Source of the DNA: Thiocapsa rosea
Lineage (GTDB): Bacteria; Pseudomonadota; Gammaproteobacteria; Chromatiales; Chromatiaceae
Length of the DNA stretch: 64,000 nucleotides
Reading direction: 5' to 3'
Assembly: GCF_003634315.1 (NCBI RefSeq)
Contig: NZ_RBXL01000001.1
Coordinates: 2,460,501-2,524,500 of the forward strand
The notes under the pieces: model-generated
Seen by the model: the letters and a program-made list of their open reading frames with translations, nothing else
Databases searched by the model: none
Told to the model about the DNA's origin: nothing
Shown here: positions 4,764-63,061 of the stretch, piece by piece
How the letters are laid out: each line of letters opens with the position of its first letter
Position numbering within the stretch: the stretch's first letter is position 1
Position numbers and translations under genes: made by a program

Positions 4764-4956
4764 TAAACCGCGTCCAGAGCGACATGCGTCATGTTCATGT
4801 TGGGTTTGGCTTCGGAGATGTCCTCGACCTCGGCGAGACGCGGTTTAAAATTTAAGCTCTTTTAATGCTCTAAACCGCGCCAGCTCCGACACTCGTTGGA
4901 GCTGGCGCGGCTAAGCCGTTCCAACACATTACGCATGCCGCACCGGGCGCGGTTTA
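4764..4956. repeat. Composite A-B dispersed element 1 (reverse orientation)
   Basis: Module A (subtype A1) occupies 4764-4847 and module B (subtype B1) 4871-4956, with an AT-rich linker between. Each module begins TAAACCGCG and ends CGCGGTTTA. The element lies between the convergent malQ and DsrC-like genes. Its right edge (TTA at 4954-4956) is, on the minus strand, the TAA stop of the DsrC-like gene. The B module contains a GC-rich hairpin (CGCGCCAGCTCC pairing with GGAGCTGGCGCG) that could terminate transcripts from either side. Confidence 0.9.
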
Positions 4957-5295
4957 GCAGGAATGGCAGTAATACCGCGGCAATCCGGCAAGACGACAGG
5001 CCTGCTTGCAGCCCCCGTTCGGAAAGAGCCCTTCCAGGTGCTTACGCGTGCAGGGCGTATGTGGTGAAACATGCGCGCCGATGGTCTTGATGACGACCTT
5101 CGGGGACGGCGGCATCTCGTGGGTTGCGTAATAGTCGCGAAGGAAATTGATCACCGCCCAGTGACATTCGGTCAGGCTCAGACCCTCCTCTTCCGCCAAG
5201 GCCGTCGCGACCGACGGCTCCCAATCGTCGAAATAGGCCAAATGGCCTTGCTTGTTGACCTCGAGCTGCCGTCCGGCGATCTGCATGGCTGACAT
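4954..5295 (-). CDS. DsrC/TusE-family sulfur-relay protein, divergent C-terminus
   Basis: Small cytoplasmic sulfur carrier of the DsrC/TusE family, which handles persulfide or trisulfide sulfur in dissimilatory sulfur metabolism or tRNA thiolation. The 113-aa protein shows the family core (HLAYFDDWEPSVATALAEEEG, CHWAVINFLRDYY, CKQACRLAGLP). The C-terminal arm is atypical. Canonical DsrC has a penultimate Cys eleven residues after the first arm Cys. Here, after Cys100, cysteines fall at positions 110 and 113, in the ending YYCHSC. The start at 5295 is chosen for GGAGGAG 5-6 nt upstream and for homology. The upstream extension of the frame looks non-coding. The TAA stop is supplied by the adjoining repeat. 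No dsr operon is nearby, so this is a stand-alone paralogue. Confidence 0.88.
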   Translation of the reverse strand: MSAMQIAGRQLEVNKQGHLAYFDDWEPSVATALAEEEGLSLTECHWAVINFLRDYYATHEMPPSPKVVIKTIGAHVSPHTPCTRKHLEGLFPNGGCKQACRLAGLPRYYCHSC

Positions 5296-5408
5296 CGCGT
5301 GCTCCTCCACCCTGCGGGTGGTCTGGTACTGCTTTGGTGGTTTTATGCCTGTCCGATGGCTTTCGGTCCGTGTTCGGGGTCGTGTCGGATCTGTACCCTG
5401 TCCGACTA

Positions 5409-5420
5409 GACAATTGTCAA
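5409..5420 (-). promoter_or_regulatory. Palindrome and putative -35 of the DsrC-like gene
   Basis: The perfect 10-bp palindrome GACAATTGTC sits at 5409-5418. On the minus strand it overlaps a TTGACA hexamer (5415-5420) about 115 nt upstream of the DsrC-like start, with a weak TACAGA 19 nt further on. Such an arrangement would suit a repressor covering the -35 region. The regulator is unknown and the promoter call is tentative. Confidence 0.3.
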
Positions 5421-5509
5421 TGCAATTTCGCCTAATCATGGACCGAAATCCGGCAGATGCAACCGGATCCAGATCAACGGGAGGTCGGATTTCGATCCGA
5501 ATCGCTCGG

Positions 5510-6865
5510 TCAACGGCGCGCCAGGACGAGCAGATCATCGCCGCGTTGGATGCGCAGGCTCAGGATGTCTCCGGTTTGGTGCAGCACCTGTGCGACGTCG
5601 CGCAGGCTCGCGACCCGTTGGCCGTTGACCTGGAGCAGGCGATCACCCTCGCGAAGACCGGCGTTCCAAGCAGGGCTGCCGGGCTCGACGGTCCCGACGG
5701 GAAGGGCCGGAACGCCGCTGCGACGATCGAGTTCGCCGATCATGGCACCCGCCAGACCGGGCGCGACGCGACGACCCTCGACGAAGGATTGATAGGGATC
5801 GGCGATGCGTCCTTCGAGCCGCCGCGTCTTGCCTCCGCGCGAGACATCGAGCTCGACGCGTGCGCCGACCGGCAGCAAACCGAATCGGGTGCGCAGATCG
5901 TCGGCCCCTTTCACGGCGGCGCCGTTGATCGCGAGAATCACATCGCCTTCCTGAAGGCCGGCTGCCGCTGCGGCCGAGTCGGGCTCAACCGCGTTGACCA
6001 CGGCCCCGTCGCGCCGCGCGATACCGAGTGCAGCGGCCAGCTCGGGCGTCAGATCCTGGATGGCGACGCCGAAGAGGCCGCGTCGCATGGCTCCGTGCTC
6101 GACGAGCTGCTCCATGACCGTCCGCGCCATATTCGCCGGGATGGCGAAACCGATCCCGATGTTCCCGCCGCCCGGTGCGAGAATCGCCGTATTGACGCCG
6201 ACCAGCTCGCCACGCAGGTTCACCAGCGGACCGCCCGAGTTGCCCGGATTAATGGATGCGTCGGTCTGTATGAAGCTCTCGTAGCCCTCGATCCCGAGTC
6301 CCGAGCGACCCAGCCCGCTGACGATGCCGGAGGTCACGGTCTGGCTCAGGCCGAAGGGGTTGCCGATCGCGACCACGAAGTCGCCGACCTTGAGCGCATC
6401 CGAGTCCACCACCGGCAGGGCGGCTAGGTCTTCGGCGGGGATGCGCAGGACCGCGATGTCGGTCTCGGGGTCTGCCCCGACCAGCTCGGCGACCAGGGTG
6501 CGCCCGTCGTGCAGGGTGACCCGGATCTCGCTTGCCTTGGCGATGACGTGCTGATTGGTCAGGACCAGACCACGCTCGGCATCGACGATGATCCCCGAGC
6601 CCAGGCTGTTGCCCTCGCGCTTTCGATGCTCGGGCGGCATCTCGAAGAAGCGACGAAAGAAGGGGTCGCGCATGAGTGGATGCTCGGCCGCTTCGATGCG
6701 CGTGACGGTGGAGATGTTGACGACGGCCGGCACGGCCTGCTCGAGCATGGGGGCGAGGCTCGGCAAGGGCTGACCCGCGACCTGCAGAGGCAAGGCCGCG
6801 CGGGCACTGCCGCTCGCCAAGGCGAGCAGGATCCAGCACAAGCGGATCGAGGAGGAGATGCGCAT
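5510..6865 (-). CDS. HtrA/DegP-like periplasmic serine protease with two PDZ domains
   Basis: Periplasmic protein-quality-control protease and chaperone of the DegP/DegQ family. The 451-aa protein has a signal peptide ending near SARA-ALP. A trypsin-like domain follows with His in LTNQHVI, Asp in DPETDIAVLRI and Ser in NPGNSGGPLVN. Two PDZ domains come after it: the first around GLFGVAIQDLTPELAAALG, the second about 360-450, ending in SLRIQRGDDLLVLARR. The length matches DegQ. The gene stands alone between the DsrC-like gene and hsp20, all on the minus strand but well separated. A sigma-E-type promoter was not identified. Confidence 0.95.
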   Translation of the reverse strand: MRISSSIRLCWILLALASGSARAALPLQVAGQPLPSLAPMLEQAVPAVVNISTVTRIEAAEHPLMRDPFFRRFFEMPPEHRKREGNSLGSGIIVDAERGLVLTNQHVIAKASEIRVTLHDGRTLVAELVGADPETDIAVLRIPAEDLAALPVVDSDALKVGDFVVAIGNPFGLSQTVTSGIVSGLGRSGLGIEGYESFIQTDASINPGNSGGPLVNLRGELVGVNTAILAPGGGNIGIGFAIPANMARTVMEQLVEHGAMRRGLFGVAIQDLTPELAAALGIARRDGAVVNAVEPDSAAAAAGLQEGDVILAINGAAVKGADDLRTRFGLLPVGARVELDVSRGGKTRRLEGRIADPYQSFVEGRRVAPGLAGAMIGELDRRSGVPALPVGTVEPGSPAWNAGLREGDRLLQVNGQRVASLRDVAQVLHQTGDILSLRIQRGDDLLVLARR

Positions 6866-7030
6866 GGGTGCGAGGGGGTGTCTTTCGGGTGTTGATCGAG
6901 GGGTCTATTTGAACCGCAAAGTCGCGAGAGACGCAAAGCCTTTGAATCGGTTGCGTGATCCCGGCTCGGGCGGGCATCCTGCTCGCGCAGGTGACGCGGA
7001 TCGACTGACCGGCATGAGCCCACACACGAG

Positions 7031-7054
7031 CAAGCCGGGCGATCGCCCGGCTTG
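7031..7054. other. Perfect 24-bp palindrome downstream of hsp20
   Basis: CAAGCCGGGCGA is followed immediately by its exact reverse complement, with no loop. It lies in the spacer between hsp20 and htrA, about 70 nt beyond the hsp20 stop. It could be half of a weak terminator (the plus-strand side is followed by TTTG) or a protein-binding palindrome. Nothing else was seen in this 259-nt spacer except the stem-loop at 7085-7113. Confidence 0.5.
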
Positions 7055-7084
7055 TTTGAAGGTCGACGAGACTCATCGACCCGG

Positions 7085-7113
7085 GGCGTCACGCGTTCGA
7101 GCCGCGTGACGCC
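7085..7113 (-). terminator. Stem-loop just after hsp20
   Basis: An 11-bp perfect stem (GGCGTCACGCG with CGCGTGACGCC) and a 7-nt loop begin 12 nt past the hsp20 stop codon. There is no clear U-run, so it may be a Rho-dependent terminator or an mRNA-stabilising 3' hairpin rather than a classical intrinsic terminator. Confidence 0.4.
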
Positions 7114-7124
7114 TTGCCTGCGCA

Positions 7125-7598
7125 TCAGGCAGCGGCCTGGGTCCTTTGGGTCTCGCCCTCGAGATATCGGCCCGTTTCGCCGCGAATCTCGATCTTGCGG
7201 GGCTTCATCGCCTCCGGGATCTCGCGACGCAGGTCGACATGCAGGAGCCCGTTTTCGAGCCGCGCATCCAGCACCCGGACATAGTCGGCAAGCTGGAATT
7301 TGCGCTCGAAGTTGCGGTTGGCGATCCCGCGATAGAGATATCTGGCCTGACCCTTCTCCTCGTCGTCCGCACGGGATCCCGAGACGGTCAGGATGTTTTC
7401 CTTGACCTCCATGGTGAGATCTTTATCCGTGAAGCCGGCCACCGCCATGGTGATGCGGTAGTCGTTCTCGCCGCTGACCTCGATATTATAAGGAGGGTAG
7501 CCGCCGGGCTCGGAGCGGTAGGCCGTCTCCAATGCGGACGACATCCGATCGAAGCCGATCATGGAGCGGAAGAGTGGCGAAAAGTCGATGTTTGTCAT
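7125..7598 (-). CDS. Small heat-shock protein, Hsp20/IbpA family
   Basis: ATP-independent holdase that binds unfolding proteins in the cytoplasm. The opening MTNIDFSPLFRSMIGFDRM matches the IbpA-type N-terminus. The alpha-crystallin domain runs from about YNIEVSGENDYRITMAVAGF to DARLENGLLHVDLRREIPE, followed by a KPRKIEI strand. I chose the ATG at 7598 (157 aa) over the one at 7604, because GAGG is 8 nt from the former and only 2 nt from the latter. A sigma-70-like promoter lies about 90 nt upstream. No partner gene is adjacent. Confidence 0.93.
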   Translation of the reverse strand: MTNIDFSPLFRSMIGFDRMSSALETAYRSEPGGYPPYNIEVSGENDYRITMAVAGFTDKDLTMEVKENILTVSGSRADDEEKGQARYLYRGIANRNFERKFQLADYVRVLDARLENGLLHVDLRREIPEAMKPRKIEIRGETGRYLEGETQRTQAAA

Positions 7599-7686
7599 TG
7601 ACATATCCTCAGTTGAGCAATATGGAAGTTGCGCGTTCGTGTGAACCGCGGTCTCTGCAGACCTCTTGCGAGCGTCTGCCTTATGT

Positions 7687-7715
7687 AGAGTAGAATCCAG
7701 GGTGACCGATGTCAA
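7687..7715 (-). promoter_or_regulatory. Putative promoter of hsp20
   Basis: On the minus strand TTGACA (7710-7715) and TACTCT (7687-7692) are separated by exactly 17 nt, a good sigma-70 arrangement. It leaves a leader of roughly 80 nt before hsp20. The repeat element beginning at 7745 stops just upstream of this promoter. A sigma-32 consensus was not convincing. Confidence 0.5.
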
Positions 7716-7744
7716 GGGGTGACGAGAAAAATATTATGTCAACT

Positions 7745-7936
7745 TAAACCGCGTCCAGAGCGAGATGCGTCGTTTTCACGTTGCGTTTGACTCTGGAGAT
7801 ATCCTCGCTCTTGGTGAGACGCGGTTTAAAATTTAATTTTTACAATATTCTAACCCGCGCCGGTTCCGACAGCCGTCGAAGCTGTCGCAGCCAAGCCGTT
7901 CCAACAAATGACGCATACCGCGCTGAGCGCGATTTA
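7745..7936. repeat. Composite A-B dispersed element 2 (reverse orientation)
   Basis: Module A1 is at 7745-7828 and module B1 at 7851-7936, the latter with a slightly degenerate outer end (GCGATTTAG). This is the only copy located between divergent genes (hsp20 and the ychJ-like gene) rather than at a gene's 3' end, so here it sits between two promoters and supplies no stop codon. Confidence 0.88.
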
Positions 7937-7979
7937 GATTCCGGACCCGCAGGCCGCGGTCGCCGGATGGAGAGACCCT

Positions 7980-8366: not shown

Positions 8367-8569
8367 TCTTCGACGGGGGAAAGGGCGCTGCGCAAGATGC
8401 GTTGCGGTTTGGGCCCGCAAGCTCTAGCGGGGCGGGGTGCCTGGCTCCGATCTGCCCGCTACCCGCAGGGCGCTGCCGCGCTGTTTGGCCGAGGCACCTG
8501 CCGCCATGTTCTATACTGCGATGAGGTAACACGATTTCCGGCCCGATGCATGACCTGCGGGAGGTGCCG

Positions 8570-15435: not shown

Positions 15436-17979
15436 ATGGCGCAGGCGACACGATACGGGCAGTTGACGTTCAGCGACTACGTGGAGCGCGCGCTCCGCGA
15501 GGGCGCCATGTGGACCCTCATGGTCGTGGCGCTCTATCTGGTGCTCGCCTTGGCCAGCTACTCTCCGGATGACCCGGGTTGGTCCTACGTCGGCGACGTC
15601 TCGCAGGTCAGCAACTCGGCCGGACGGGCCGGCGCCTGGTTTGCCGATGTCACGCTCTTTCTGTTCGGGTTCTTCGCCTATCTGCTCCCCGTGATGGTCG
15701 GCTGGAGCGCCTGGCTGGTGTTCCGCGGTCGCGGCGAGGAGCCGGCGCCGCGGACCTGGATCCTGGCGCTGCGCTGGATCGGGTTCTTCATCACCATCGT
15801 TGCCGGCTGTGGATATGCCGCGATTCATCTCGCCGAGCTCGGCGCCCATCTACCGAACGGGGCAGGCGGCGGTCTGGGCATGCTCGTCAGCGACAACATG
15901 CGCGCCGCCTTCAATACCAGGGGGACCGATCTGCTGCTCGGGGGTGCCCTTTTGGTCGGGTTCACGCTCTTCTCCGGGATCTCCTGGCTGAAGGTGGTCG
16001 ACAATACGGGCGCTGCCGTTCTGCAGGCCGCAGGCTGGGTCGCGAATGTCGTGCAGGGTGCGGCGACGGCCTTGGTGATGCGTCGGCAGGCTGCCGCAGC
16101 GGGGGAGTCGACCGGGCTTCCCGAGGCGTTGAACCTCATCGACGATCCGACGCAATCCGACGGACCATCGATGCGTTCGCGCTTGCGTGAAGCGGTCGGT
16201 TCGGACGCAACAGGCTCCGAAGCGTCGGGGCACGAGCCGGGGGAGCGGCTCGGGCGTCGTTTCGAGGGGCTTCCGCGGCGTGTGCGGGAGGCCATGGCCG
16301 AGCCAGAGACCCTGTCGCTCGATGATCTCAAGCGCGGTCAGAAGCCCGTGCCGGCGGCGGCACCGCGGATCAAGACGCCGCCGCGTCCGGTGACCCGGCC
16401 CGAGCCGCCGCTCCCGGCTACACAGGCTCCGTCGGTACAGGCTGCTTCTGCCGCCCATAGCGCAACCGCTTTGACCGACGAGGTCAGTCTCCCGCCGCTC
16501 GACCTACTGGATCAGCCGCGTCCGAGCGGCCGAGCCTACTCGGACGAGCAGATCGAGGATCTGTCGCGACAGGTCGAACTCAAGCTTGCCGACTTCGGCG
16601 TCCAGGTCCAGGTCGTCGCTGTCTACCCCGGCCCAGTCGTCACGCTCTTCGAGCTGGAGCTCGCACCCGGCATCAAGGTCAGCAAGATCACCGGACTGGC
16701 GAAGGATCTGGCCCGCGCGCTCTCGACCATCAGCGTGCGTGTGGTGGAGGTGATCCCGGGCAAGTCGGTGATCGGCATCGAGATCCCCAATCAGCAGCGC
16801 GAGACGGTCTTTCTGCGCCAAACCTTCGGCTCGGCGACCTATCAGGACGCTAAGTCGCCGCTGACCTTGGGCCTGGGCAGCGACATCTCCGGTCTGCCGG
16901 TGGTCGTGGATCTAGCCAAGATGCCGCATGTGCTGATCGCCGGCACCACCGGCTCGGGTAAATCGGTCGCCATCAACGCCATGATCCTGAGCCTGCTCTA
17001 CAAGGCAGGGCCGCAGGACGTGCGCCTCATCATGGTCGATCCGAAGATGCTCGAGCTCTCGGTCTACGAGGGCATCCCGCATCTACTCACCCCCGTGGTG
17101 ACCGACATGAAGGAGGCGGCCAACGCGCTGCGCTGGTGCGTCGGGGAGATGGAACGTCGCTATCGCCTGATGGCGAAGCTCGGGGTGCGCAATATCGGCG
17201 GCTACAACCGTCAGATCGCCGACGCTGCTGCACAGGGCCGCACCATCCCGGATCCCACCATCGCCGCGGATTTCGCCGCCGAGCAGGGTATCGAGGTGCC
17301 GGCCCTGGAGCACCTGCCCTACATCGTCGTGGTGATCGACGAGCTGGCGGACATGATGATGGTGGTCGGAAAGAAGGTCGAAGAGCTGATCGCGCGGCTG
17401 GCGCAGAAGGCGCGGGCCTCCGGCATCCATCTCCTGCTCGCCACCCAACGCCCCTCGGTCGATGTCCTGACCGGGCTCATCAAGGCCAATATCCCGACCC
17501 GGATCGCCTTCCAAGTGTCTTCGCGGATCGACTCACGCACCGTTCTGGACCAGATGGGCGCCGAGCAATTGTTGGGCAACGGCGACATGCTTTATCTGCC
17601 GCCGGGCGGCAACATCCCGCAGCGTGTGCACGGCGCCTTCGTCGACGATCACGAGGTGCATCGGATCGTCGAGCACCTCAAGCAGTTCGGCGAGCCTCGG
17701 TATCTGCAAGACGTGCTGCGCGAGCCGACCGAAGTGCTCCCGGGCATCGATCCCGAGCCGCGCGGCGACACCGAGGACACGGATCCGCTGTTCGACGAGG
17801 CCGTGCAGATCGTTGTTGAAAGCCGGCGTGCCTCCATCTCCGGGGTACAACGGCGTCTGAAGATCGGCTACAACCGCGCCGCACGCATGATCGAAGAGAT
17901 GGAGCGCATCGGGATCGTAGGTCCGGCGGAGACCAACGGAAACCGCGAGGTCTTGGCGCCGCCGCCGATCGAGGATTAA
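15436..17979 (+). CDS. ftsK: FtsK/SpoIIIE DNA translocase
   Basis: Septal DNA pump that clears and resolves chromosome termini. The 847-aa protein has four membrane helices in its first ~200 residues, a short low-complexity Pro/Ala linker (about 230-350) and a motor domain with Walker [10 protein letters not shown] and Walker [12 protein letters not shown]. It ends with a gamma winged-helix domain ([38 protein letters not shown]) for KOPS recognition. The start has GGAGAGAG close upstream. The C-terminus [14 protein letters not shown] ends where FtsK proteins normally end, and the TAA stop is the first three bases of the adjoining dispersed element. lolA and rarA follow, a common gammaproteobacterial order. 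Confidence 0.97.
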
Positions 17980-18168
17980 ACCGCGCCCGGTGCAGTATGC
18001 GTCATTTGGTGGAATGGACTGGCCGCGCTGGCTCTGACGACTGTCGGATCCGGCGCGGTTTAAAGTAATAGAAAGATTAAATTTTAAACCGCGTCTCGCC
18101 AAGATCGAGTAAGCCCCCGACGCTGAACTCAGCGTGAAAAGGATGCATGTCGCTCTGGACGCGGTTTA
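17977..18168. repeat. Composite B-A dispersed element 3 (forward)
   Basis: Module B1 is at 17977-18062 and module A1 at 18085-18168. The left edge TAA is the ftsK stop codon. The element fills most of the spacer before lolA. The hairpin of this B copy has partly decayed (CCGCGCTGGCTC against GGATCCGGCGCGG), unlike most B1 copies. Confidence 0.9.
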
Positions 18169-20430: not shown

Positions 20431-20543
20431 TGTCATCTGGACGCTGTTTAGCATCTTAAACCGCGTCGACTCCAGCGGTCGTCAAAACTGCCGGGGCCGA
20501 TCCCATCCAAAAACACCGCATACCGCGCACCGGGCGCGGTTTA
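20431..20543. repeat. Dispersed element 5: decayed A end plus B2 module
   Basis: Positions 20431-20450 (TGTCATCTGGACGCTGTTTA) are a degenerate copy of the outer end of module A, only 9 nt after the rarA stop. A full B2 module in reverse orientation follows at 20457-20543. Its right edge TTA (20541-20543) is the TAA stop of the minus-strand host-attachment-type gene. The locus lies between convergent genes. Confidence 0.85.
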
Positions 20544-23872: not shown

Positions 23873-24066
23873 TAAACCGCGTCCAGAGCGAGATGCGAAA
23901 TTCTCGAGTGAGCTCGACGTTCGGTGCATCCACAGTCTTTAGCGGGGGCGCGGTTTAAAATAATATATTTTTTAATATCTTAAACCGCGCCGACTCCAGC
24001 GGTCGTCACGTCTGCCGGGGCCGATCCCATCCAAAAAACATCGCATACCGCGCCGGGCGCGGTTTA
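23873..24066. repeat. Composite A-B dispersed element 7 (reverse; A2/B2 subtypes)
   Basis: Module A2 is at 23873-23957 and module B2 at 23981-24066. The internal sequences differ from A1/B1 (A2 contains AGCTCGACGTTCGGTGCATCCAC, B2 GGCCGATCCCATCC) while the ends are the same. The right edge TTA (24064-24066) is the TAA stop of trpB2. Confidence 0.9.
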
Positions 24067-25425: not shown

Positions 25426-25558
25426 GCTGTGGTCGAACCTCGGTAGTGGGTATGGCGACCGGCCATCTTCGCTGCCGGTCTTTGTCGTCCGTCGGCAAGT
25501 GTGCCAGCTTTGGGACCGATCTTGAATCCCAACCCGGCACAGGCCGTCGAACTCACTC

Positions 25559-25590
25559 GAAAATCAGTATCTCGCTCTGGACGCGGTTTA
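25559..25590. repeat. Partial A-module end, element 8
   Basis: Only the outer ~32 bp of module A remains (ATCTCGCTCTGGACGCGGTTTA, closest to subtype A2). Even this fragment ends exactly at the TAA stop (25588-25590) of the SRPBCC gene. It is either a truncated insertion or a decayed remnant in the trpB2-SRPBCC spacer. Confidence 0.75.
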
Positions 25591-27095: not shown

Positions 27096-27287
27096 TAAAC
27101 CGCGCCCGGTGCGGTATGCAACATGTGTCGAGTGGCTTGGCTGCGCCAGCTCCGATGGCTGTCGGAGCTGGCGCGGTTTAGGGTGTTAATAAAAATGACG
27201 TTTCAAATCGCGTCTCACCGAGAGCGAGGACACCCCCAAAGCCAAACGTGAAATGTAAATGACGCATGTTGCTCTGGACGTGATTTA
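27096..27287. repeat. Composite B-A dispersed element 9 (forward)
   Basis: Module B1 is at 27096-27180, with a 13-bp stem (GCGCCAGCTCCGA with TCGGAGCTGGCGC). A decayed A1 is at 27203-27287, with outer ends TCAAATCGCG and TGATTTA. It lies between the start of the DUF2721 gene and the end of der. No stop codon is shared. Confidence 0.88.
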
Positions 27288-35749: not shown

Positions 35750-36706
35750 ATGAGTCATTACGATGTCTTCAACGGCGACGCCGACGGTCTCTGTGCCCTG
35801 CAGCAACTGCGCTTGGCCGAGCCGATCGAGAGCATCCTGGTCACCGGTGTGAAACGCGACATCGCCCTGCTCGAGCGGGTCGATGCGGTCGATGGCGATC
35901 AGGTCACCGCGCTGGATATCTCGTTCGACAAGAATCGCGGCGCGGTCGAGCGTTTGCTGGAGCAGGGTGCGCGCATCCGCTATTTCGATCACCACTTCGC
36001 CGGCGAGATCCCGGCCCACCCGGCGCTCGATGTCCACATCGAGACGCTGCCCGACAAGGGGACCAGTCTTCTTGTCGATGACTATCTTCGGGGCTCGCAA
36101 CGCGCATGGGCCGTGGTGGGGACCTTCGGGGACAACTTCGATGCGTCCGCCCGTCGGGCCGCCGAGCCTCTGGATCTGACCGAAGGGGAGCTCGACCTGC
36201 TGCACGATCTCGGTATCTATCTCAATTACAACGGTTATGGCGAGACCGTCGACGACCTCTTGTTTGCCCCGGATGCGCTTTTCCGCAGCTTGCAGCCCTA
36301 TGCCGATCCCTTGGCCTTTATCGTCGAGGATCCGGCGTTCGCCGCCCTGCGCGACGGTTATGCCGACGACATGGCCCGTGCGCGCGCCGTCGCACCCGCG
36401 TACGAGAGCGAGGGGCACCGTCTCTTCATCTTGCCGGCCGAGCCCTGGGCGCGCCGTGCCAGCGGCGTTTTCGCCAACGAGCTGGCCCAACTGGCACCCG
36501 AGCAAGCGCACGCCATGTTGACTCGGCTGCCCGCGGGAGGGTTTCTCGTCAGTGTCCGTGCGCCGCTGGCGCGTCCCGACGGGGCGGATGTGCTGTGTCG
36601 AGGGTTTCCGAGCGGTGGAGGGCGCAAGGCGGCGGCCGGGATCAACCTGCTGCCCGAGGCCGAGTACGACACCTTCCTGGAGCGGTTCCGCGCCGCGTTC
36701 GGATAG
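35750..36706 (+). CDS. DHH-family phosphoesterase
   Basis: A 318-aa soluble metal-dependent phosphoesterase. The DHH motif is IRYFDHHFAG; it is preceded by the metal-binding DVFNGDADGLCALQQ and ALDISFDKN. A C-terminal DHHA1-like part has GFPSGGGRKAAAGINLLP. Relatives include RecJ-like nucleases, oligoribonucleases and cyclic-dinucleotide phosphodiesterases; the substrate cannot be decided. ATG 35750 lacks a strong ribosome-binding site but matches the family's usual beginning; the upstream extension is unlikely to be coding. Confidence 0.85.
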   Translation: MSHYDVFNGDADGLCALQQLRLAEPIESILVTGVKRDIALLERVDAVDGDQVTALDISFDKNRGAVERLLEQGARIRYFDHHFAGEIPAHPALDVHIETLPDKGTSLLVDDYLRGSQRAWAVVGTFGDNFDASARRAAEPLDLTEGELDLLHDLGIYLNYNGYGETVDDLLFAPDALFRSLQPYADPLAFIVEDPAFAALRDGYADDMARARAVAPAYESEGHRLFILPAEPWARRASGVFANELAQLAPEQAHAMLTRLPAGGFLVSVRAPLARPDGADVLCRGFPSGGGRKAAAGINLLPEAEYDTFLERFRAAFG

Positions 36707-36708
36707 CG

Positions 36709-36907
36709 AAAACCGCGCCCGGTGCGGTATGCGTAATTTGCTGGAATGGCTTGGCCGCGCCGGCTCCGACGACTGCCGGAGCTGGCGCGGTTTAAAGTTT
36801 AAAGTTTTGAAAAAACTAAATTCTAAACCGCGTCGCACCGAGATTGAGGATATCTCCAAAGCCAAACGCAACGTGAAAACGACGCATATCGCTCTGGACG
36901 CGGTTTA
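36709..36907. repeat. Composite B-A dispersed element 10 (forward)
   Basis: Module B1 is at 36709-36794 and module A1 at 36824-36907, with a longer, duplicated AT-rich linker (TTTAAAGTTTAAAGTTTTG). It lies between convergent genes. It begins 2 nt after the DHH stop and ends 3 nt before the TAG stop of the modular secreted protein, so it abuts both genes without supplying either stop. Confidence 0.9.
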
Positions 36908-36910
36908 GTC

Positions 36911-38767
36911 CTATTCGACGTCGGCGATGAAGTACCCGACATCCTCGAGCAGGTGCGTCATCTCCCGATCACGCGACTGCTCTTCCTGCACCCGCAGGTC
37001 CACCGACTCGACGTTGAGATTCTGCCACCGCAGTGCTGCCGTGTCGTCGCCATGGGTCGTCTGCATGTCGGCGACGAGCACCGGGGGCCGCACGAAGGCC
37101 GTTTGGTAGACGAGGTTGTGCGCCTCGTGGTTGACCATGCGTCCGGTACGCCCGACCTCGTATCGCATCCCGTCGACGACACCCGAGGATGCCTCCCAGG
37201 CGATAAAGTCGATGCGTTCGGGCAGATGCTGTTGCGCGTTGGCCTCTTGCTCGCGCAGCCCGACGTCGAAGCCGTCGGTCTCGATGGCGTGCAGCCGCGC
37301 CGTGACCGCGTCGCTCTCGTTGAAGCTGGCGACGGTCGCGAAGACGACCGGAGCGTCCTCGAAGGGGGCACTGAAGAGATGGCGTTGGAATGCCTGCGTC
37401 GTGCCCGTGACCAGCGAATCGGCCTCGACCCACACCCCGTCGGGGAGCTGATGGCGTCCGCGCTCCATCACGAGATAGGAAACGGTCTCCAAGTCATGCG
37501 CGCCGTCGAGATAGTCCCACTCCTGCACGCGAATCGAGAAACCCGCGGGGTCGATCGCATCGACCCGGATGATCGCCGGCTCGGGGTCGTAGCTGCTCAA
37601 CGCCTTGACCACGACGACCGGGTCCTTGAACGCGCGCTGCAGCTCGACACGCTGCCATTCCTGATTGATCTCCACCTCGCCGATCTCGATGGCCGGGCCG
37701 GTTGCCGCGACCGCGTCGGCAGACGTGGTCGGGGGGGATTGGGTGCCGGTGTTTGCGGTTGAGGTGGTCTGCGCCTCGGCCATGGCCTTGATCGAAGATG
37801 TTGCTGTTGTTGCACTGTTCCGCAGGGTTGCTGCCTGGATGGAGACGTTGCCGCCGCTGATGGCCTGGGTGTAGCGCACGATCAAGGTCTGGGCTGCACT
37901 GGCGGCTCGATAGTTCAGAACGAGGCGCCGATCGAACGTAGCTTTGAGATTCTCGACCGTCGCCGCGTACACCGGTGCGCTGTTGTCGCTGAGGCGTACC
38001 TCGATCCGCCCGCGCGTCTTGAAGCCGCCGAGGTAGAGGGTCAGGGTCCGTGCGTTCGTATCCGCCGGAACACGCAGCTCGTATCCCTTGTTTAGGCCGC
38101 TGATATAGAGACCCGCTCGCGTTGTTGCACTGGTTTTGGGCGTTCCGTTGGTCCAGCTGTACGCCAACCGGGATGTCGTGGTGAAGCGCAGCGGGCTCCC
38201 GCCGATCGCGGTTAAGGTGCCGATCCGGGTGGCTGCACTGGCCTTGCGGCTGACGCTGGTGGGCCTGTCGATGCCCCAATGGATCCAGTCGATCGCACCC
38301 TCTGCCGTGAGGTTTGCCGTGCCGCTCGGGGTGGTCAGTGTCGGCGTCAACTGCGCTGCCGTCGGAATGCTGACGTTCACCTCGTTGGAGAAGGCGCTGC
38401 AGAGCTTGCCGTCGCTCGTGCATGCACGCGTCGCGAAGAAATATTTCGAGCCGCCCGCCAAACCGGAGACGGTGGCCGACGCCGTTGTAACCTGGACCTT
38501 CGATTGATAGGTCTTGCTGGCAGTCCCGTAGTGCACCTCGTAGCGTGCTGCTCGGGTGTCGTTCACCGCATTCCACGCCAGTCGGACCTCGCCCGCGGCA
38601 GCCTGGGACAAACCGCTTGCCGATAACAACATGAGCAGCAGGAACATCTGCACGAACAGAATGAAACCGAGGTGGATGTCGGTCCGGGGGTGATCTTGAA
38701 GCGTCCGAGTGCGTAGCATGGCGTTCACCATTTCGGTACGAGTGACGGAACCTGTCCTCGGAATCAC
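36911..38767 (-). CDS. Large secreted modular protein: fibronectin-III-like domain plus three repeated beta modules
   Basis: An exported protein of up to 618 aa. A hydrophobic signal segment (about 33-57) is followed by a fibronectin type III domain (GEVRLAWNAVNDTRAARYEVHYGTASKTYQ, then FFATRACTSDGKLCSAFSNEVNV). A Ser/Thr-rich middle section comes next, then three related modules starting near residues 370, 455 and 545. Each pairs a FxxPPVVVA-like strand with a later S-x-D/E-x-RVQE motif (SIRVQEWDYLDGAHD in the first, VDLRVQEEQSRD in the last). These resemble modules of large exported proteins in marine bacteria, possibly carbohydrate- or surface-binding. A start at 38719 is equally possible. 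Function unknown. Confidence 0.65.
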   Translation of the reverse strand: MIPRTGSVTRTEMVNAMLRTRTLQDHPRTDIHLGFILFVQMFLLLMLLSASGLSQAAAGEVRLAWNAVNDTRAARYEVHYGTASKTYQSKVQVTTASATVSGLAGGSKYFFATRACTSDGKLCSAFSNEVNVSIPTAAQLTPTLTTPSGTANLTAEGAIDWIHWGIDRPTSVSRKASAATRIGTLTAIGGSPLRFTTTSRLAYSWTNGTPKTSATTRAGLYISGLNKGYELRVPADTNARTLTLYLGGFKTRGRIEVRLSDNSAPVYAATVENLKATFDRRLVLNYRAASAAQTLIVRYTQAISGGNVSIQAATLRNSATTATSSIKAMAEAQTTSTANTGTQSPPTTSADAVAATGPAIEIGEVEINQEWQRVELQRAFKDPVVVVKALSSYDPEPAIIRVDAIDPAGFSIRVQEWDYLDGAHDLETVSYLVMERGRHQLPDGVWVEADSLVTGTTQAFQRHLFSAPFEDAPVVFATVASFNESDAVTARLHAIETDGFDVGLREQEANAQQHLPERIDFIAWEASSGVVDGMRYEVGRTGRMVNHEAHNLVYQTAFVRPPVLVADMQTTHGDDTAALRWQNLNVESVDLRVQEEQSRDREMTHLLEDVGYFIADVE

Positions 38768-46493: not shown

Positions 46494-46688
46494 TAAACCA
46501 TGCCTGGTGCGGTATGCGATGTTTTTTTGGATGGGATCGACCCCGGCAGACTTGACAGTCGCTGGAGCAGGCGCGGTTTAAGGTATTAAAAAATATATCA
46601 TTTTAAACCGCGTGCCCGCTAAGAGCCGTGGATGCACCAAACGTCGAGCTTACTGGGAAATTTAGCATCTCGCTCTGGACGCGGTTTA
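46494..46688. repeat. Composite B-A dispersed element 11 (forward; B2/A2)
   Basis: Module B2 is at 46494-46580 and module A2 at 46604-46688, the same subtype pairing as element 7 but in the opposite direction. The right edge TTA (46686-46688) is the TAA stop of the L,D-transpeptidase. The element lies upstream of the TonB receptor leader. Confidence 0.9.
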
Positions 46689-53258: not shown

Positions 53259-53344
53259 TAAACCGCGCCCGGTGCGGTATGCGTCGTTTTTTGGATTGGC
53301 TTGGCCGCGCCTGCTCCGACGACCGCCGGAGCGGGCGCGGTTTA
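53259..53344. repeat. Solo B module, element 12 (forward)
   Basis: A single B module close to subtype B1 but with a B2-like left half (GTCGTTTTTTGGATTGGCTTGG), suggesting exchange between subtypes. It contains the stem CCGCGCCTGCTCC...GGAGCGGGCGCGG with one mismatch. It lies between the 5' end of maeB and the 3' end of the Crp/Fnr gene, and shares no stop codon. Confidence 0.88.
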
Positions 53345-56474: not shown

Positions 56475-56894
56475 ATGCGTTTCCTATCCACTTTTCTCGT
56501 GGCCTTTGTCTTGATTGCCGGCGGCCTCGTGGCGCCCGTCCTGGCGAGCGACGACGACCCGCTCTTCATCAACTTGACAACGGATGACCCGCACCGCGCG
56601 AACATGGGCATCACGTTCGGAAAGAATCAACTCGAGCGCGGCCACCCCTTGACCATCTTCCTCAACGACAAGGGCGTCTTCATCGGGGCCAAGGCGAATG
56701 CCGCGACCTTCGGCGAGCACCAGGAGAAACTGGCCGCGATGATCGACAAGGGCGCCCTGGTCCTGGTGTGTCCCATGTGCATGAAGCACTACGGTGTCGC
56801 CGAGGCGGATCTGATCCCCGGTGCTCAGGTCGGCAACCCCGAGCTGACCGGCGGCGCACTGTTCAAAGACGACACTCAAACCTTGACCTGGTAA
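56475..56894 (+). CDS. Exported DsrE/DsrF-like protein
   Basis: A 139-aa protein with a signal peptide (MRFLSTFLVAFVLIAGGLVAPVLAS) and a DsrE/DsrF-like sulfur-relay fold (LFINLTTDDPHRANMGITFGKNQLERGHPLTIFLNDKGVFIG, LVLVCPMCMKHYGV). CPMC carries the two cysteines; DsrE proteins hold persulfide on such a Cys. A periplasmic location is unusual for the cytoplasmic DsrEFH class. It follows norB after 282 nt in which I recognise no further gene or promoter. GAGG precedes the ATG. The TAA stop belongs to the repeat. Confidence 0.85.
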   Translation: MRFLSTFLVAFVLIAGGLVAPVLASDDDPLFINLTTDDPHRANMGITFGKNQLERGHPLTIFLNDKGVFIGAKANAATFGEHQEKLAAMIDKGALVLVCPMCMKHYGVAEADLIPGAQVGNPELTGGALFKDDTQTLTW

Positions 56895-57084
56895 ACCGCG
56901 CCCGGTGCGGTATGCGTCATGTGCTGGGATGACTTGACCGCGCCAGCTCCCACGACCGTCGGAGCTGGCGCGGTTTAAAGTATTGAAAAAGATTAAATTA
57001 TTAACCGCGCATCACCGAGATCGAGGGCGTCTCCGAAGCCCAACGCAACATGAAAATGACGCATGTCGCTCTGGACGCGGTTTA
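56892..57084. repeat. Composite B-A dispersed element 13 (forward)
   Basis: Module B1 is at 56892-56977, with a perfect 13-bp stem CCGCGCCAGCTCC/GGAGCTGGCGCGG. Module A1 is at 57001-57084. The left-edge TAA is the stop of the DsrE-like gene; the right edge lies 8 nt before the chrA stop. The genes are convergent. Confidence 0.92.
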
Positions 57085-58713: not shown

Positions 58714-58827
58714 ATGTCCGCCACGCTCACCGCAGTGCTGCCCGTGCGTTACCCGCCGGGTGATTCGGCGATCTGGATCTTCATCCCCGGAACCCCGATC
58801 ACCATCGCCTTCACATTTGCCGACTGA
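58714..58827 (+). pseudogene. Short norE-like remnant (cytochrome oxidase subunit III-like N-terminus)
   Basis: A 37-codon frame with a good ribosome-binding site (GGAG 7 nt upstream), 6 nt before norQ. Its middle, YPPGDSAIWIFI, matches the conserved N-terminal segment (PGDxAIWxFI) of NorE-type subunit III-like membrane proteins encoded in nor operons. After IFI the frame diverges (PGTPITIAFTFAD) and stops, whereas an intact NorE continues through five helices. I read it as a truncated norE, possibly kept as a leader peptide. It could also be a small protein in its own right. Confidence 0.4.
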
Positions 58828-58833
58828 GCACAG

Positions 58834-59700
58834 ATGACATCCAGACACGCCGTCCGTCCGATCTCGATTCCGATCTCCGGCGCGATGACCGGCCACGCGG
58901 CTCAGGTCTCCGCCGAGCCGGAGCGCCCGTCCATCTTTTACAAGCCGCAAGGCCGCGAGGTCGCGCTCTTCGAATACGCCTTCCACAACCGCCTGCCGGT
59001 GATGATTAAGGGGCCGACGGGGTGCGGTAAGACCCGCTTCGTGCGCTATATGGCCGAGCGCCTGGAGCGCGCGCTCTACACCGTCGCCTGTCATGACGAC
59101 CTCACCGCGGCTGACCTGGTGGGTCGTCATCTGATCGGCACTGAAGGGACCTTCTGGAGCGATGGTCCGCTTACGCGTGCGGTGCGCGAGGGCGCCGTCT
59201 GCTATCTCGACGAGGTGGTGGAGGCGCGCAAGGACACCACGGTGGTGCTGCATCCGCTGACCGACGATCGACGCATCCTGCCCTTGGAGCGCACCGGCGA
59301 GACGTTGCAGGCGCCGCCGGGATTCATGCTGGTCGTTTCTTACAATCCCGGCTATCAGACTCTGCTCAAGGGAATGAAGCCGAGCACGCGCCAGCGCTTC
59401 GTCGCCGTCACACTCGGCTTTCCCGCGCCACGCCTGGAGGCCGCGATCCTCATCGGCGAGACCGGGATCGACAGCGCATGGGCCGAGGTGCTGGTGCGGA
59501 TCGCCGGCGCGTTGCGGGCGCTCAAGGACCACGACCTCGAGGAAGGCGTCTCGACCCGCCTGCTCGTCTACGCGGCGACCCTGATCCAGGCCGGTATGGA
59601 CCCACGCGATGCCTGTCTCGCCGCGCTGGTCGAGCCCTTGACCGACGATGCCGAGACCATCGCGGCACTTGCGGAGGTGATCGATGCAACACGCGTTTAA
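58834..59700 (+). CDS. norQ: NorQ/CbbQ-type AAA+ activation ATPase
   Basis: MoxR-class ATPase that works with NorD to activate NO reductase, probably in metal insertion. The 288-aa protein has YKPQGREVALFEYAFHNRLPVMIKGPTGCGKT (Walker A at 60-67), AVCYLDEVVEARKDTT (Walker B) and ERTGETLQAPPGFMLVVSYNPGYQ. The C-terminal domain ends STRLLVYAATLIQAGMDPRDACLAALVEPLTDDAE, as in NirQ/NorQ. The TAA stop is shared with the repeat that separates it from the next gene. Confidence 0.93.
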   Translation: MTSRHAVRPISIPISGAMTGHAAQVSAEPERPSIFYKPQGREVALFEYAFHNRLPVMIKGPTGCGKTRFVRYMAERLERALYTVACHDDLTAADLVGRHLIGTEGTFWSDGPLTRAVREGAVCYLDEVVEARKDTTVVLHPLTDDRRILPLERTGETLQAPPGFMLVVSYNPGYQTLLKGMKPSTRQRFVAVTLGFPAPRLEAAILIGETGIDSAWAEVLVRIAGALRALKDHDLEEGVSTRLLVYAATLIQAGMDPRDACLAALVEPLTDDAETIAALAEVIDATRV

Positions 59701-59886
59701 ACCGCGCCCGGCGCGGTATGCGATGTTTTTGGATGGGATCGGCCCCGGTAGACGTGACGACCGTTGGAGTCGGCGCGGTTTAAAGTATAAGAATTTTACG
59801 TTAAAGCCGCGTCTCGCCAAGATCAAGGAAGTCTCCGATGCTGAACATAAAACAAGAATGACGCATGTCGCTCTGGACGCGGTTTA
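59698..59886. repeat. Composite B-A dispersed element 14 (forward; hybrid B2/A1)
   Basis: Module B2 is at 59698-59782 and module A1 at 59802-59886. This is the only composite in the window pairing a B2 with an A1. Its left-edge TAA is the norQ stop. It sits inside an apparent operon (norQ to norD), so if it terminates transcription it would lower expression of the downstream genes. Confidence 0.9.
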
Positions 59887-59911
59887 GCCCATCAAACGCG
59901 GTTGAATCCTC

Positions 59912-60325
59912 ATGAAGAGTACCCGGCCTGAAGGTCAGCGGATCGCCATTGCCGCCGAGTCGCTGTATCTCGCCAACCTGCTCATCCTGCCCGGTATCGG
60001 CTTCCTGCTCCTGCTGGCGCTCGCGTTTTGGGGCCGGGAGGGTCGCGCACCGCTGGCGGCTGCGCATCTGGATCAAACGGTCCGGGCGAGTCTCTGGGCA
60101 GGGTTGCTCCTGATCATCGTGATCTCCGCAGTGATGGCGCTTGCCGGTGCAGGGGCCATGTATGTCTGGACGCTGGTGATCCTCTATTTCATCGTCTGCC
60201 ACACCACGCTGGTCCTGCTCGGCGTCTTCGGCTTAGCCAAGGCGTTGGCGGGCCACTGCTGGCGTTACCCCTTCCTCGGGCCGCCGCTGCCGGCCGGGTG
60301 CCCTCGGGCAAAACGCCATGTCTAG
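59912..60325 (+). CDS. Small integral membrane protein in nor cluster
   Basis: A 137-aa protein with about three helices (LYLANLLILPGIGFLLLLALAFW, SLWAGLLLIIVISAVMALAGAGAMYVWTLVILYFIV, TTLVLLGVFGLAKALAG) and a short basic tail. I do not recognise a named family. It overlaps the polyferredoxin gene by 8 nt, implying coupled expression and a possible role as its membrane partner. Its start has no strong Shine-Dalgarno, consistent with read-through from norQ across the repeat. Confidence 0.75.
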   Translation: MKSTRPEGQRIAIAAESLYLANLLILPGIGFLLLLALAFWGREGRAPLAAAHLDQTVRASLWAGLLLIIVISAVMALAGAGAMYVWTLVILYFIVCHTTLVLLGVFGLAKALAGHCWRYPFLGPPLPAGCPRAKRHV

Positions 60326-61286
60326 AACCCGGCTGCAACAACGGCGTGCCTGGTTTCAGGTCGGCTTCTTTTCGCTCTTCCTGCTGGCGCCTCCGCTCGA
60401 TCTCTTTCGGATCGATCTCACGCTCGGACACGCGATCCTGTTCGGGCAGCACTGGACGCTCGGGATCGAGGACTTTCTCGCCGGCCGCACCGGCATCGGC
60501 GATGCGACGCTCAACCTCTTCGTACGCGGCTTTTTGCCCATCTTCGGCGGGGCTGGGCTCTTCTTGATCATTGCTTGGCGATACGGGCGTCTCTACTGCG
60601 GTTGGCTGTGCCCGCATTTCTCCGTCGTCGAGACGATCAATGCACTGATGCGCCGCGCATCCGGGAAACCCAACCTCTGGGAGCGCCGCACCCTGCCGCC
60701 GCCGCTGCGCGGTCCCATTCCGCAAGGCGCTCGTGACACCGCTCTTGCGGTACCGCGCATCTCCCGACGCTCCGCGCCGAGTGACGCATCGTCTGGAGGC
60801 TCGGCGAGTGCGTGCGTGACCGGCGACAGGACCGACGCGTGGGATCCGAGCCCAAAGCCCACGGCATCGGCCCCGTATTGGAAACGCCGGTACTGGATCC
60901 CGACCCTGCTTGCGGTGGTCGGCTTCGACACCCGCCGCGCCGCCGCCTGCGCCGATTGCGACAACGCCTGCGACCATGCCTGTCCGATGCGTCTGAAGCC
61001 GCGCACGCTCAAGCGCAAGATGTTCACCTGTACCGAGTGCGCCGAGTGCATCGCGGCCTGCACACAGGTCCAGCACGGCGACCCGCGGCAGAGCCTGCTG
61101 CGCTGGGTGGAGGGTGCGGAGGCGTTCCCGGTCGTGACCGGTCGCCCGGCCACGACGTCCACCGCGCGAAGCGAGAATCCTTCAACGCAACGGTTGTCCG
61201 CAAATCGATGGAAGAACAGGTCGGAGCACTCTGGCATCGCGCCATCACCCGTCTCTCGGAACGGCGGCACCCCTTTGCTGCGGTGA
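60318..61286 (+). CDS. Membrane 4Fe-4S protein of the NapH/NosR/CcoG type
   Basis: Polyferredoxin with membrane helices, likely an electron donor or cofactor-assembly redox protein. In 322 aa I see helices at about 12-35 and 70-90, the motif YCGWLCPH typical of the NapH/NosR/CcoG family, another helix near 195-205, then two cluster motifs, CADCDNACDHACPM and CTECAECIAACTQV. Residues about 125-190 form a low-complexity Ser/Pro/Ala insertion with no similarity. The last ~55 residues lie out of frame over the start of norD and look unconserved, so the true end may be shorter or altered by a frameshift. Position suggests service to NOR. Confidence 0.75.
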   Translation: MSRTRLQQRRAWFQVGFFSLFLLAPPLDLFRIDLTLGHAILFGQHWTLGIEDFLAGRTGIGDATLNLFVRGFLPIFGGAGLFLIIAWRYGRLYCGWLCPHFSVVETINALMRRASGKPNLWERRTLPPPLRGPIPQGARDTALAVPRISRRSAPSDASSGGSASACVTGDRTDAWDPSPKPTASAPYWKRRYWIPTLLAVVGFDTRRAAACADCDNACDHACPMRLKPRTLKRKMFTCTECAECIAACTQVQHGDPRQSLLRWVEGAEAFPVVTGRPATTSTARSENPSTQRLSANRWKNRSEHSGIAPSPVSRNGGTPLLR

Positions 61287-63061
61287 CGCTGGACGAGGTC
61301 GCCGGTCCCATCGGGATCTTCTTCCGTGCGCTCGGCGGCGACGGCGGACTCCAGGTCGAAGCGGCGGAGGCGAGCGCACACGGTGCGCGTCGCGGGTTCC
61401 TGCAACGACTCGCCGGTCTCGAGGACAAGGTCGAGCTGGCCTGGCGCGACGAGCGTTCGTTGCGTCTGCCCGCCCGGATCGACCTCTTCGCGGAGCGTGC
61501 GCTGAATCGCGATCTCTACATCTGGCTCGCCGCGCTCGCGGCCCAACAGACAGGCCCAACCCGAGATTGGCTCGTCGAGAGCCAGGACCAAGCCCGCCGG
61601 ACGCTCACGCGTTTTCCGGGCCTGCGTCCGCGCTACCGACGTCTGCTCGACGCCCATCTCGACCTGCGCCCGGATCCGCGCGCGCTGCCGGCACAGGAGC
61701 GTGCGCGCGAGGAGGCCATCCGTCTTGCGCTCGAAGACCCCGGCAGCGTCGAGCGACTCCCGGCGGGGCGTCGTCCGCCCTATCCGGTCGTCCTCTGGCT
61801 CCATCCCGATCCCGAACTCCCGCCAGGCGCCTGGTCAGACATTGCGGGGTCCGATCTCTCCTGCGGCGAGTCGCAGGACATCGATCGCGATGCCGCCGTC
61901 GAGTCGCTCGGCGAGCGCCGTCGGCGACGTGCCGAGCGGGTCGCCATGCCGGAGAAGGACCAGGGTCTGATCACGATTCGCATGGAGAACATCCTCACCT
62001 GGGACGAGCATGTCCAGGTCGACCGCGGGACCGACGAGGAGGACGACCTGGAGCGCGCCCGCACCGCCGCCGCCGATCTGGACCGCATCTCGGTCGCACG
62101 CGACCGTAAGGCACACGGTGCACGCCTGAAATTCGACCTGGACCTCCCGGCCGAGTCCGAGGACGACCTCGTCCTCTCGGAAGGGATCCTCTTGCCCGAG
62201 TGGGACTGGCGACAGGGTGCACTTCGCCCGAATCAGTGTCGCGTGGTCCCGCTGGTCGCCGCGCACGCCACACCCTGCGGGCTGCCCGAGCACTTGCGCC
62301 GCACGGCCCATCGTTTGCGCCACCAGTTCCAGGCCCTTGCCCCGGCGCGCGTCTGGCAGCGCGGCCAGTCCGACGGACAGGAGATCGACCTGGACGCCTA
62401 TCTGCGTTTCGCCACGGATCGCCGTGCCGGGGCTGCCGCACCCGGGGACGGACTCTATCGCGACATGCGCAAAGGGGCGCGTGATCTGGTGTGTCTGCTG
62501 CTCTCGGATCTCTCGCTCTCGACCGATACCTGGGTGGACGACCGCGCACGGGTCATCGATGTCATCCGAGACAGTCTCTTCCTCTTCGCCGAGAGCTTGG
62601 CCGCGACCGGCGACCCCTTCGGCATGCTCGGCTTCTCCTCGCGTCGCCGCGACCCCGTGCGGATCCATAACCTTAAGGATTTCGACGAGCCTCACGGCGC
62701 CGCCGTGCGCGGGCGCATCGCCGCCATCAAGCCCGGCTATTACACCCGCATGGGCGCCGCGATCCGCTACGCGACCCGTGTGCTCGCCGCGCAACCGGGC
62801 GGACGCCGTCTCCTGCTGATCCTCTCCGACGGCAAGCCCAACGATCTCGACCGCTACGACGGTCGCTACGGGATCGAAGACACCCGCCGCGCCGTCCGGG
62901 AGGCCCGCGACCTCGGCCTGACCTGCTTCTGCGTCACCATCGACGAGCGCGGCAACGACTATCTTCCCCACCTCTTCGGCACCGGCGGCTATGTCGTCAT
63001 CCGCCGGCCTGCCGAGCTCCCTGAGCAGCTCCCCGTGCTCTATGCGCGGCTGACCGCTTAA
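61208..63061 (+). CDS. norD: NorD activation protein with von Willebrand factor A domain
   Basis: Cytoplasmic partner of NorQ needed for active NO reductase. From ATG 61208 it is 617 aa. A helical N-terminal region (EEQVGALWHRAITRLSERRHPFAAVTLDEVAG) is followed by a charged middle. The C-terminal VWA domain has MIDAS DLSLSTDT (VCLLLSDLSLSTDTW), with LLLILSDGKPNDLDRYDGRYGIEDTRRAVREARDLGL and GYVVIRRPAELPEQLPVLYARL at the end. The start overlaps the polyferredoxin frame by 79 nt and has no good ribosome-binding site. The TAA stop is repeat-supplied. Confidence 0.92.
   Translation: MEEQVGALWHRAITRLSERRHPFAAVTLDEVAGPIGIFFRALGGDGGLQVEAAEASAHGARRGFLQRLAGLEDKVELAWRDERSLRLPARIDLFAERALNRDLYIWLAALAAQQTGPTRDWLVESQDQARRTLTRFPGLRPRYRRLLDAHLDLRPDPRALPAQERAREEAIRLALEDPGSVERLPAGRRPPYPVVLWLHPDPELPPGAWSDIAGSDLSCGESQDIDRDAAVESLGERRRRRAERVAMPEKDQGLITIRMENILTWDEHVQVDRGTDEEDDLERARTAAADLDRISVARDRKAHGARLKFDLDLPAESEDDLVLSEGILLPEWDWRQGALRPNQCRVVPLVAAHATPCGLPEHLRRTAHRLRHQFQALAPARVWQRGQSDGQEIDLDAYLRFATDRRAGAAAPGDGLYRDMRKGARDLVCLLLSDLSLSTDTWVDDRARVIDVIRDSLFLFAESLAATGDPFGMLGFSSRRRDPVRIHNLKDFDEPHGAAVRGRIAAIKPGYYTRMGAAIRYATRVLAAQPGGRRLLLILSDGKPNDLDRYDGRYGIEDTRRAVREARDLGLTCFCVTIDERGNDYLPHLFGTGGYVVIRRPAELPEQLPVLYARLTA

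Follow-up and report, generated by a model that had tools for sequence, protein, structure and literature searches.

The window analysed here is a stretch of 64,000 nucleotides from the purple sulfur bacterium Thiocapsa rosea (contig NZ_RBXL01000001.1, positions 2,460,501 to 2,524,500) that contains about 14 copies of a repeat of about 192 bp. The copies lie among genes for a DsrC-like protein, FtsK, a host-attachment protein, TrpB2, an SRPBCC protein, an L,D-transpeptidase, a DsrE-like protein, NorQ and NorD, and each of these nine genes ends in the outermost TAA of a repeat copy (Table 1). A first-pass annotation of the window had reported these nine stops and had added that TGA dominates elsewhere, with about two other TAA stops. 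Both observations were confirmed. The 54 called genes of at least 150 nt in the window end in TGA (36), TAG (7) or TAA (11), and 9 of the 11 TAA stops are repeat edges. The gene caller was a home-made codon log-odds script (74% coding) that misses genes, and all counts of stop edges given below depend on it.

A full repeat has two modules joined by an AT-rich linker: module A (TAAACCGCGCCCGG...) is about 86 nt long and module B (...CTCTGGACGCGGTTTA) about 84 nt. Both modules have TAAACCGCG-type termini, four per full repeat. In 37 aligned full copies, the terminal inverted repeats AACCGCG...CGCGGTT are found at both ends, with single changes in some. No coding capacity was found in the one copy examined (17977-18168), where open reading frames of at least 20 amino acids are short (23 amino acids inside) or enter from outside, and an Rfam scan of the window at gathering scores matched no family. 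Subfamilies of modules A and B occur in mixed pairs in the 37-copy alignment, for example at L038:18761-18952 and L034:2291-2480; this pattern suggests recombination between copies or the joining of half elements. From L036:13785 onward, a repeat end is followed by repeated GGTACGCCGACTTCAGTCGGC hairpin units, which are another short repeat.

The T. rosea sample comprised the window and 60 evenly spaced 20-kb stretches (1.264 Mb of the 6.11-Mb genome). Samples were also drawn from a second Thiocapsa genome, G016 (40 stretches, 0.8 Mb), and from Thiobaca (G117; 20 stretches, 0.4 Mb). In the T. rosea sample, 239 ends score at least 20 of 25, and 66 full, 60 half and 36 truncated copies were distinguished by thresholds of our own; solo modules are common.

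Table 1. Copies of the repeat in the window
Positions	Strand	Copy	Relation to genes and relatives
4764-4956	-	full element, module A end at 4956	edge TAA 4954-4956 is the stop of the DsrC-like gene
7745-7936	-	full element	edges without a stop
17977-18168	+	full element	ftsK ends in the edge TAA; the codon is TGA in relatives, which lack such an element
20457-20543	-	module A half element, perhaps the remnant of a longer leftward copy	the host-attachment protein gene ends in the edge TAA
21602-21687	+	solo module A	without a stop
23873-24066	-	full element	edge TAA is the trpB2 stop; orthologues have TAG and are element-free
25535-25590	-	truncated copy, B end only; inner boundary estimated	edge TAA is the stop of the SRPBCC gene
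27096-27287	+	module A and degenerate module B, counted as half element	without a stop
36709-36907	+	full element, outer T replaced	in three relatives, a GC-rich hairpin follows the stop instead
46494-46688	+	full element, degenerate A end, counted as half	edge TAA 46686-46688 is the L,D-transpeptidase stop
53259-53344	+	solo module A	without a stop
56892-57084	+	full element	the DsrE-like gene ends in the edge TAA
59698-59886	+	full element	norQ ends in the edge TAA; an oppositely oriented element occupies this TA in T. marina
63059-63249	-	full element	norD ends in the edge TAA; at this TA, T. marina carries the other type of element end

At the end of the DsrC-like gene, an element is also present in T. 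roseopersicina and T. marina, and an apparent remnant is found in Thiocapsa sp. KS1. The end of the host-attachment protein gene in KS1 carries a longer, two-module element. The region around the copy at 36709 (36699-36915) looks as if one 3' structure had taken the place of another.

The YTAR target and the preserved stop

In the T. rosea sample, 150 of 157 A ends and 124 of 131 B ends have a pyrimidine before the terminal TA; the corresponding counts are 69 of 71 A ends and 52 of 53 B ends in G016, and 33 of 35 A ends and 19 of 19 B ends in Thiobaca. These values correspond to 93-100% of both kinds of end across the three genomes, and because the pyrimidine is nearly always present at both ends, the target is YTAR. 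Exact YTA and TAR flanks border 101 of the 124 intact copies. Empty sites hold the TA once and filled sites twice. The flanks of filled sites, joined with a single TA, were aligned with element-free relatives, and the alignment was required to be gapless from 6 nt before to 8 nt after the junction T; this was so for 31 of 40 filled sites and 55 of 71 alignments. Clear examples are L148 compared with L100, L163 compared with L173, and L081 of T. rosea compared with G016. A 4-nt duplication of YTAR, as in MITEPsy1, was rejected: all 37 aligned copies have an A behind the left TA, and the right TA is followed by A or G.

Terminal inverted repeats, a target duplication demonstrated by empty sites, and the lack of coding capacity in the copy examined are all features of a miniature inverted-repeat transposable element (MITE). 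Judged from these sequence features, the repeat behaves as a non-autonomous, TA-duplicating, MITE-like transposable element. Of the features expected of a MITE derived from IS630/Tc1, the TA duplication is present, and ends in common with an IS630 element were not found at the loci inspected.

TAA and TAG are both TAR, and the first base of the element is A; the stop is therefore an in-frame TAA after insertion, and any TAR stop that follows a codon ending in C or T is an insertion target. Relatives were aligned for 21 stop-associated filled copies. Fifteen of these are gapless and were grouped by hand into 11 distinct sites (L024 and L035:6781 being a single copy, and L147/L081 and L148/L160/L170 each an orthologous set), one of which, L205, is nested at the edge of another copy. 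In the relative, the same codon is also a stop at all 11 sites: TAA at 6, TAG at 3 and TGA at 2. Truncation of genes by insertion was rejected on these grounds, in agreement with the first-pass annotation, which had read the genes as complete.

That annotation had considered insertion at TAA stops, selection for TAA stops, or a termination or RNA-processing module that includes the stop. The alignments bear out insertion into stops that already existed, but the target is YTAR and not TAA only; TAG serves as well and becomes TAA. The trpB2 stop is TAG in element-free orthologues (five alignments from four genomes, two of them of the same KS1 region). One-sided alignments give TAG at the DsrE-like gene in two relatives; at the L,D-transpeptidase gene they give TAA in three relatives, which are element-free at that edge. 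The ftsK stop is TGA in three alignments from two genomes, and also in T. marina and Thiobaca; presumably, the lineage changed to TAA before the insertion. Selection for TAA is not needed, since the TAA consists of the duplicated TA and the first base of the element.

Excess of copies at gene ends

In the T. rosea sample, 67 of 162 repeats have the stop of a called gene at an edge, and repeat edges make up 67 of 208 TAA stops. Counted by edges, 70 of 288 end a called gene; three of these are TGA stops. G016 has a stop edge in 32 of 68 elements, and 28 of its 118 TAA stops are repeat edges (30 distinct stop edges, some shared by copies). The corresponding values in Thiobaca are 12 of 29 elements and 13 of 65 TAA stops. 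Empty YTAR sites served as the control for the 124 intact T. rosea repeats. Whereas the repeats lie on a stop in 54 cases, elsewhere between genes in 69 and in a gene in 1, the empty sites number 137 at stops, 1368 in intergenic positions and 515 of 2020 in genes; the control is generous because the caller misses genes and some "intergenic" sites lie in uncalled genes. The association of repeat edges with stops is thus well above chance (odds ratio 7.8 for stop compared with intergenic positions, Fisher p 2e-21).

Occupancy was also compared within gaps of at most 400 nt, between YTAR sites at 0-10 nt from a stop and those more than 10 nt away. In convergent gaps, the sites filled were 28 of 65 near the stop and 5 of 52 beyond in T. 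rosea, 12 of 37 and 3 of 34 in G016, and 6 of 23 and 0 of 19 in Thiobaca. In tandem gaps, they were 40 of 114 and 17 of 225, 12 of 62 and 7 of 118, and 7 of 31 and 7 of 112, respectively. Sites within 10 nt of a stop are filled 3-5 times as often as sites deeper in the same gaps. The preference that the first-pass annotation saw is therefore real, but it is not for the stop codon alone: the first 10 nt after the stop are favoured no less, with 7 of 14 YTAR sites at 1-10 nt filled in convergent gaps and 8 of 20 in tandem gaps of T. rosea. When single gaps that offer both kinds of site were considered, 23 of 34 elements lie on the stop compared with 13.8 expected (P 0.0009; T. rosea 16 of 22 versus 9.5, G016 4 of 8 versus 3.1, which is little alone, and Thiobaca 3 of 4 versus 1.2). 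Similarly, 25 of 34 lie at 0-10 nt compared with 15.7 expected (P 0.0007; 16 of 18 versus 8.0, 4 of 8 versus 3.7, and 5 of 8 versus 3.9). The empty-YTAR control, the gap occupancy and the single-gap tests reject target choice alone as the cause of the excess.

The reading that we prefer, with a probability of roughly 0.8, is that of a MITE-like element with a YTAR target and TA duplication, whose insertion preserves stops, whose copies in genes are purged, and which gathers at TAR stops. Insertion at the palindromic Y-TA-R duplicates the TA, as filled and empty sites show, and gives Y-TA-[AACCGCG...CGCGGTT]-TA-R. Where the TA belongs to a TAA or TAG stop after a pyrimidine, insertion leaves TA plus A, a TAA in the same frame, and the protein is unchanged, which the sequence implies and the orthologues bear out. 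Insertions in genes are nearly absent and were presumably removed by selection, so TAR stops and the few bases after them would form a safe harbour where copies accumulate. The mover would be a TA-duplicating cut-and-paste transposase that was lost or lies outside the samples. Purifying selection is the preferred reason for the excess at gene ends; on the simplest reading, the first bases after a stop are open to insertion, unlike gene bodies, promoters and terminators.

Several points weigh against this reading. The TA is retained in only 31 of the 55 gapless empty-site alignments, the others having TG (12), CA (5), GA (4), CG (2) or TT (1), and some of these alignments pair with other repeats and not with orthologues. 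Six stop-associated copies had gaps at the junction and were set aside, and in one of these (L048:14630 compared with G016) the codon concerned is not a stop in the relative. At the two stop sites where relatives have TGA, a TAR target must be assumed. Beyond 10 nt, occupancy drops sharply even between convergent genes, a position with no downstream promoter, and this would also fit targeting or use as a 3'-end element. Finally, no parent transposase was found in a search that is incomplete and that covered most of the genome by family only, not by ends. Stop preservation is explained and the excess at gene ends is explained in part; plain safe-harbour selection may not be the whole story.

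The parent transposase and rival explanations

Genes of the IS630 type were inspected in T. rosea (7), in seven relatives (23) and in four genomes (20, the sets overlapping), and none is bounded on both sides by repeat ends. One-sided cases are L268, with one repeat end, and L285, with a repeat copy. IS630 itself favours CTAG. None of the 9 DDE_Tnp_1 places inspected out of 21 is bounded by repeat ends, one of them (L064) adjoining a half element, and DDE_Tnp_1_2 has no match in the T. rosea genome or in G016. Among the Y1_Tnp loci inspected, none is bounded by repeat ends on both sides, and one (L219) has a repeat copy on one side. Scanning of 10 of 53 pairs of distant ends for open reading frames gave one IS66 transposase. 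This gene, in L056, is a separate insertion and was rejected as the parent, since it carries GTAACTGTTCAGGT ends of its own, is flanked by a 9-nt repeat within the copy, and has relatives that lack the repeat ends. IS66 elements duplicate 8 bp. In L056:12793-14317, the IS66-type insertion sequence with GTAACTGTTCAGGT ends lies inside a repeat copy and is flanked by 9-nt direct repeats.

Through its target and first base, the stop-preserving element may also be specific to gene ends, possibly guided to them or kept there as a mobile 3'-end module, and this one repeat would then supply about a third of a genome's TAA stops; we regard this as a tentative possibility and do not favour it. A rival reading, which we consider unlikely, is that the element is a useful mobile module whose hairpins end or protect transcripts and whose copies after stops are positively selected. 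The occupancy of convergent gaps near stops and the single-gap excess would agree with this, as would the 36709 copy, where three relatives have a hairpin, and the folding of ten module strands of the window with z-scores of -0.7 to -4.8. The tests of a terminating role gave no support to it or to the similar proposal of the first-pass annotation. Two terminator-like sites (hairpin plus U tract) were predicted in 17-28 kb, neither of them inside a repeat, and the ends that abut stops show no clear orientation (20 A and 11 B in full copies, versus 69 A and 60 B overall, compared without a statistical test). Downstream structure z-scores at convergent ends are alike with and without an element (26 versus 79 gaps, p 0.26). 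Native terminator-like signals downstream are not fewer where an element is present (T. rosea 10 of 38 versus 30 of 291 without; G016 1 of 17 versus 21 of 172; Thiobaca 1 of 7 versus 9 of 96), in a comparison whose control mixes in operon-internal gaps. Covariation in the 37-copy alignment is weak, with 5 of 28 pairs changed on both sides, and was read as following the subfamily split.

That gene ends attract the insertion machinery itself, independently of YTAR and for instance at the point where translation or transcription halts, is quite unlikely in our judgement, although the steep drop beyond 10 nt in convergent gaps is what it would predict. Shared sites bear on this point. The same TA is occupied in opposite orientation in two species at three distinct sites, in addition to norD; the sites concerned are 59698-59886 and 63059-63249 of the window, L031:7751-7943 and L063:12284-12475. 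The pairs at norQ and L063 are no more similar than random copies (0.80; random mean 0.79, sd 0.05), suggesting that one TA was hit repeatedly, and the third pair, at L031, reaches 0.87. Independent hits on one TA or inversion in place would explain these pairs. About 16 other shared pairs have the same orientation, most with an identity of 0.84-0.97, as inheritance predicts (three pairs among G016 L292, L155 and L124 have 0.74-0.84). Flank composition differs little between filled and empty sites, divergent promoter gaps are filled as well (10 of 65 YTAR sites in T. rosea, 2 of 42 in G016 and 3 of 29 in Thiobaca), and selection can produce the same pattern.

It is very improbable that the repeat is a REPIN-like element moved by a Y1 (HuH) transposase, in which the left TA would be target, the right TTA would belong to the element, and no true duplication would take place. 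Two modules with an AT-rich linker do resemble a doublet of palindromes, and the genome has nine Y1_Tnp matches, one of which (L219) has a TG-ended module nearby, on one side. The other eight loci show only two single AACCGCG ends (L223 and L224). Moreover, the pyrimidine requirement is about equal at both ends of a symmetrical YTAR. A one-sided Y1 target would not give such equality, and REPIN/RAYT systems are not known to make a symmetrical target duplication.

Distribution, related elements and significance

Exact outer ends were found in 9 of 11 Thiocapsa genomes, with 0 to 204 per genome and 176 in T. rosea. Across the order, 13 of the 119 genomes sampled have them, and these belong to 6 of 42 genera. 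Among the matches listed are Thiocapsa, Thiobaca, Thiocystis, a Chromatiaceae metagenome-assembled genome (MAG) and a Thiosymbion MAG. This patchy distribution suggests spread within the family. An exact repeat end was also seen in a contig of a Candidatus Nanopelagicales MAG (L156, JAGYOB010000111.1), which is perhaps mis-binned. The assembly of Thiocapsa sp. KS1 (G001/G012) is listed as 10.4 million bases, its first contig being a 5.07-Mb chromosome, and may hold more than one genome.

Short TA-duplicating repeats are known from other bacteria. RUP of Streptococcus pneumoniae, related to IS630-Spn1, is 107 bp long, with 108 copies between genes, TA at its targets and no transposase of its own (PMC2229807). 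The Thiocapsa repeat is likewise short, intergenic and TA-targeting; however, an IS630 with like ends is proposed as the mover of RUP, none was found for the Thiocapsa repeat, and the available text of that source mentions no stop-codon habit. The Correia/NEMIS elements of Neisseria, as far as the accessible descriptions go, are 100-155 bp long, have inverted ends of 26 bp, duplicate TA, lack a transposase and make up about 2% of the genome (PMC3898611), and their transcripts form hairpins (PMC2229807). The Thiocapsa repeat is set apart from these descriptions by its two modules, four TAAACCGCG-type termini and heavy use of stops. Enterobacterial repeats of the RU/ERIC type are reported to have TA termini, to duplicate TA on insertion and to form stem-loops; RU-1 fused to ECA3499 is said to remove the normal stop and lengthen the protein, whereas the Thiocapsa repeat keeps the stop (PMC2759123, in the portion available). 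MITEPsy1 of Pseudomonas syringae, possibly of the IS5 type, has the target CTAG or YTAA in the accessible part of its description (PMC3189936). This is near YTAR, but MITEPsy1 is reported to duplicate 4 nt and the Thiocapsa repeat duplicates only TA. The nearest remarks in the literature, in the text available, concern individual repeats located at the end of a gene, where they extend or border its reading frame (PMC2759123, PMC5896051). A literature search, with most subscription papers outside its reach, returned no description of this repeat or of an equally strong stop-codon habit.

In sum, the repeat is a new family of TA-duplicating miniature elements for which stop codons are a safe harbour through the YTAR target. 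As 67 of the 208 sampled TAA stops in T. rosea are edges of this one repeat, stop usage and 3' untranslated sequence have been reshaped by the element, and not by codon selection alone. The copies also offer a natural collection for testing whether a hairpin immediately downstream of a stop has any effect on transcript ends. A YTAR target combined with a first base of A represents a simple route by which a mobile element can fill a compact genome without breaking its proteins.

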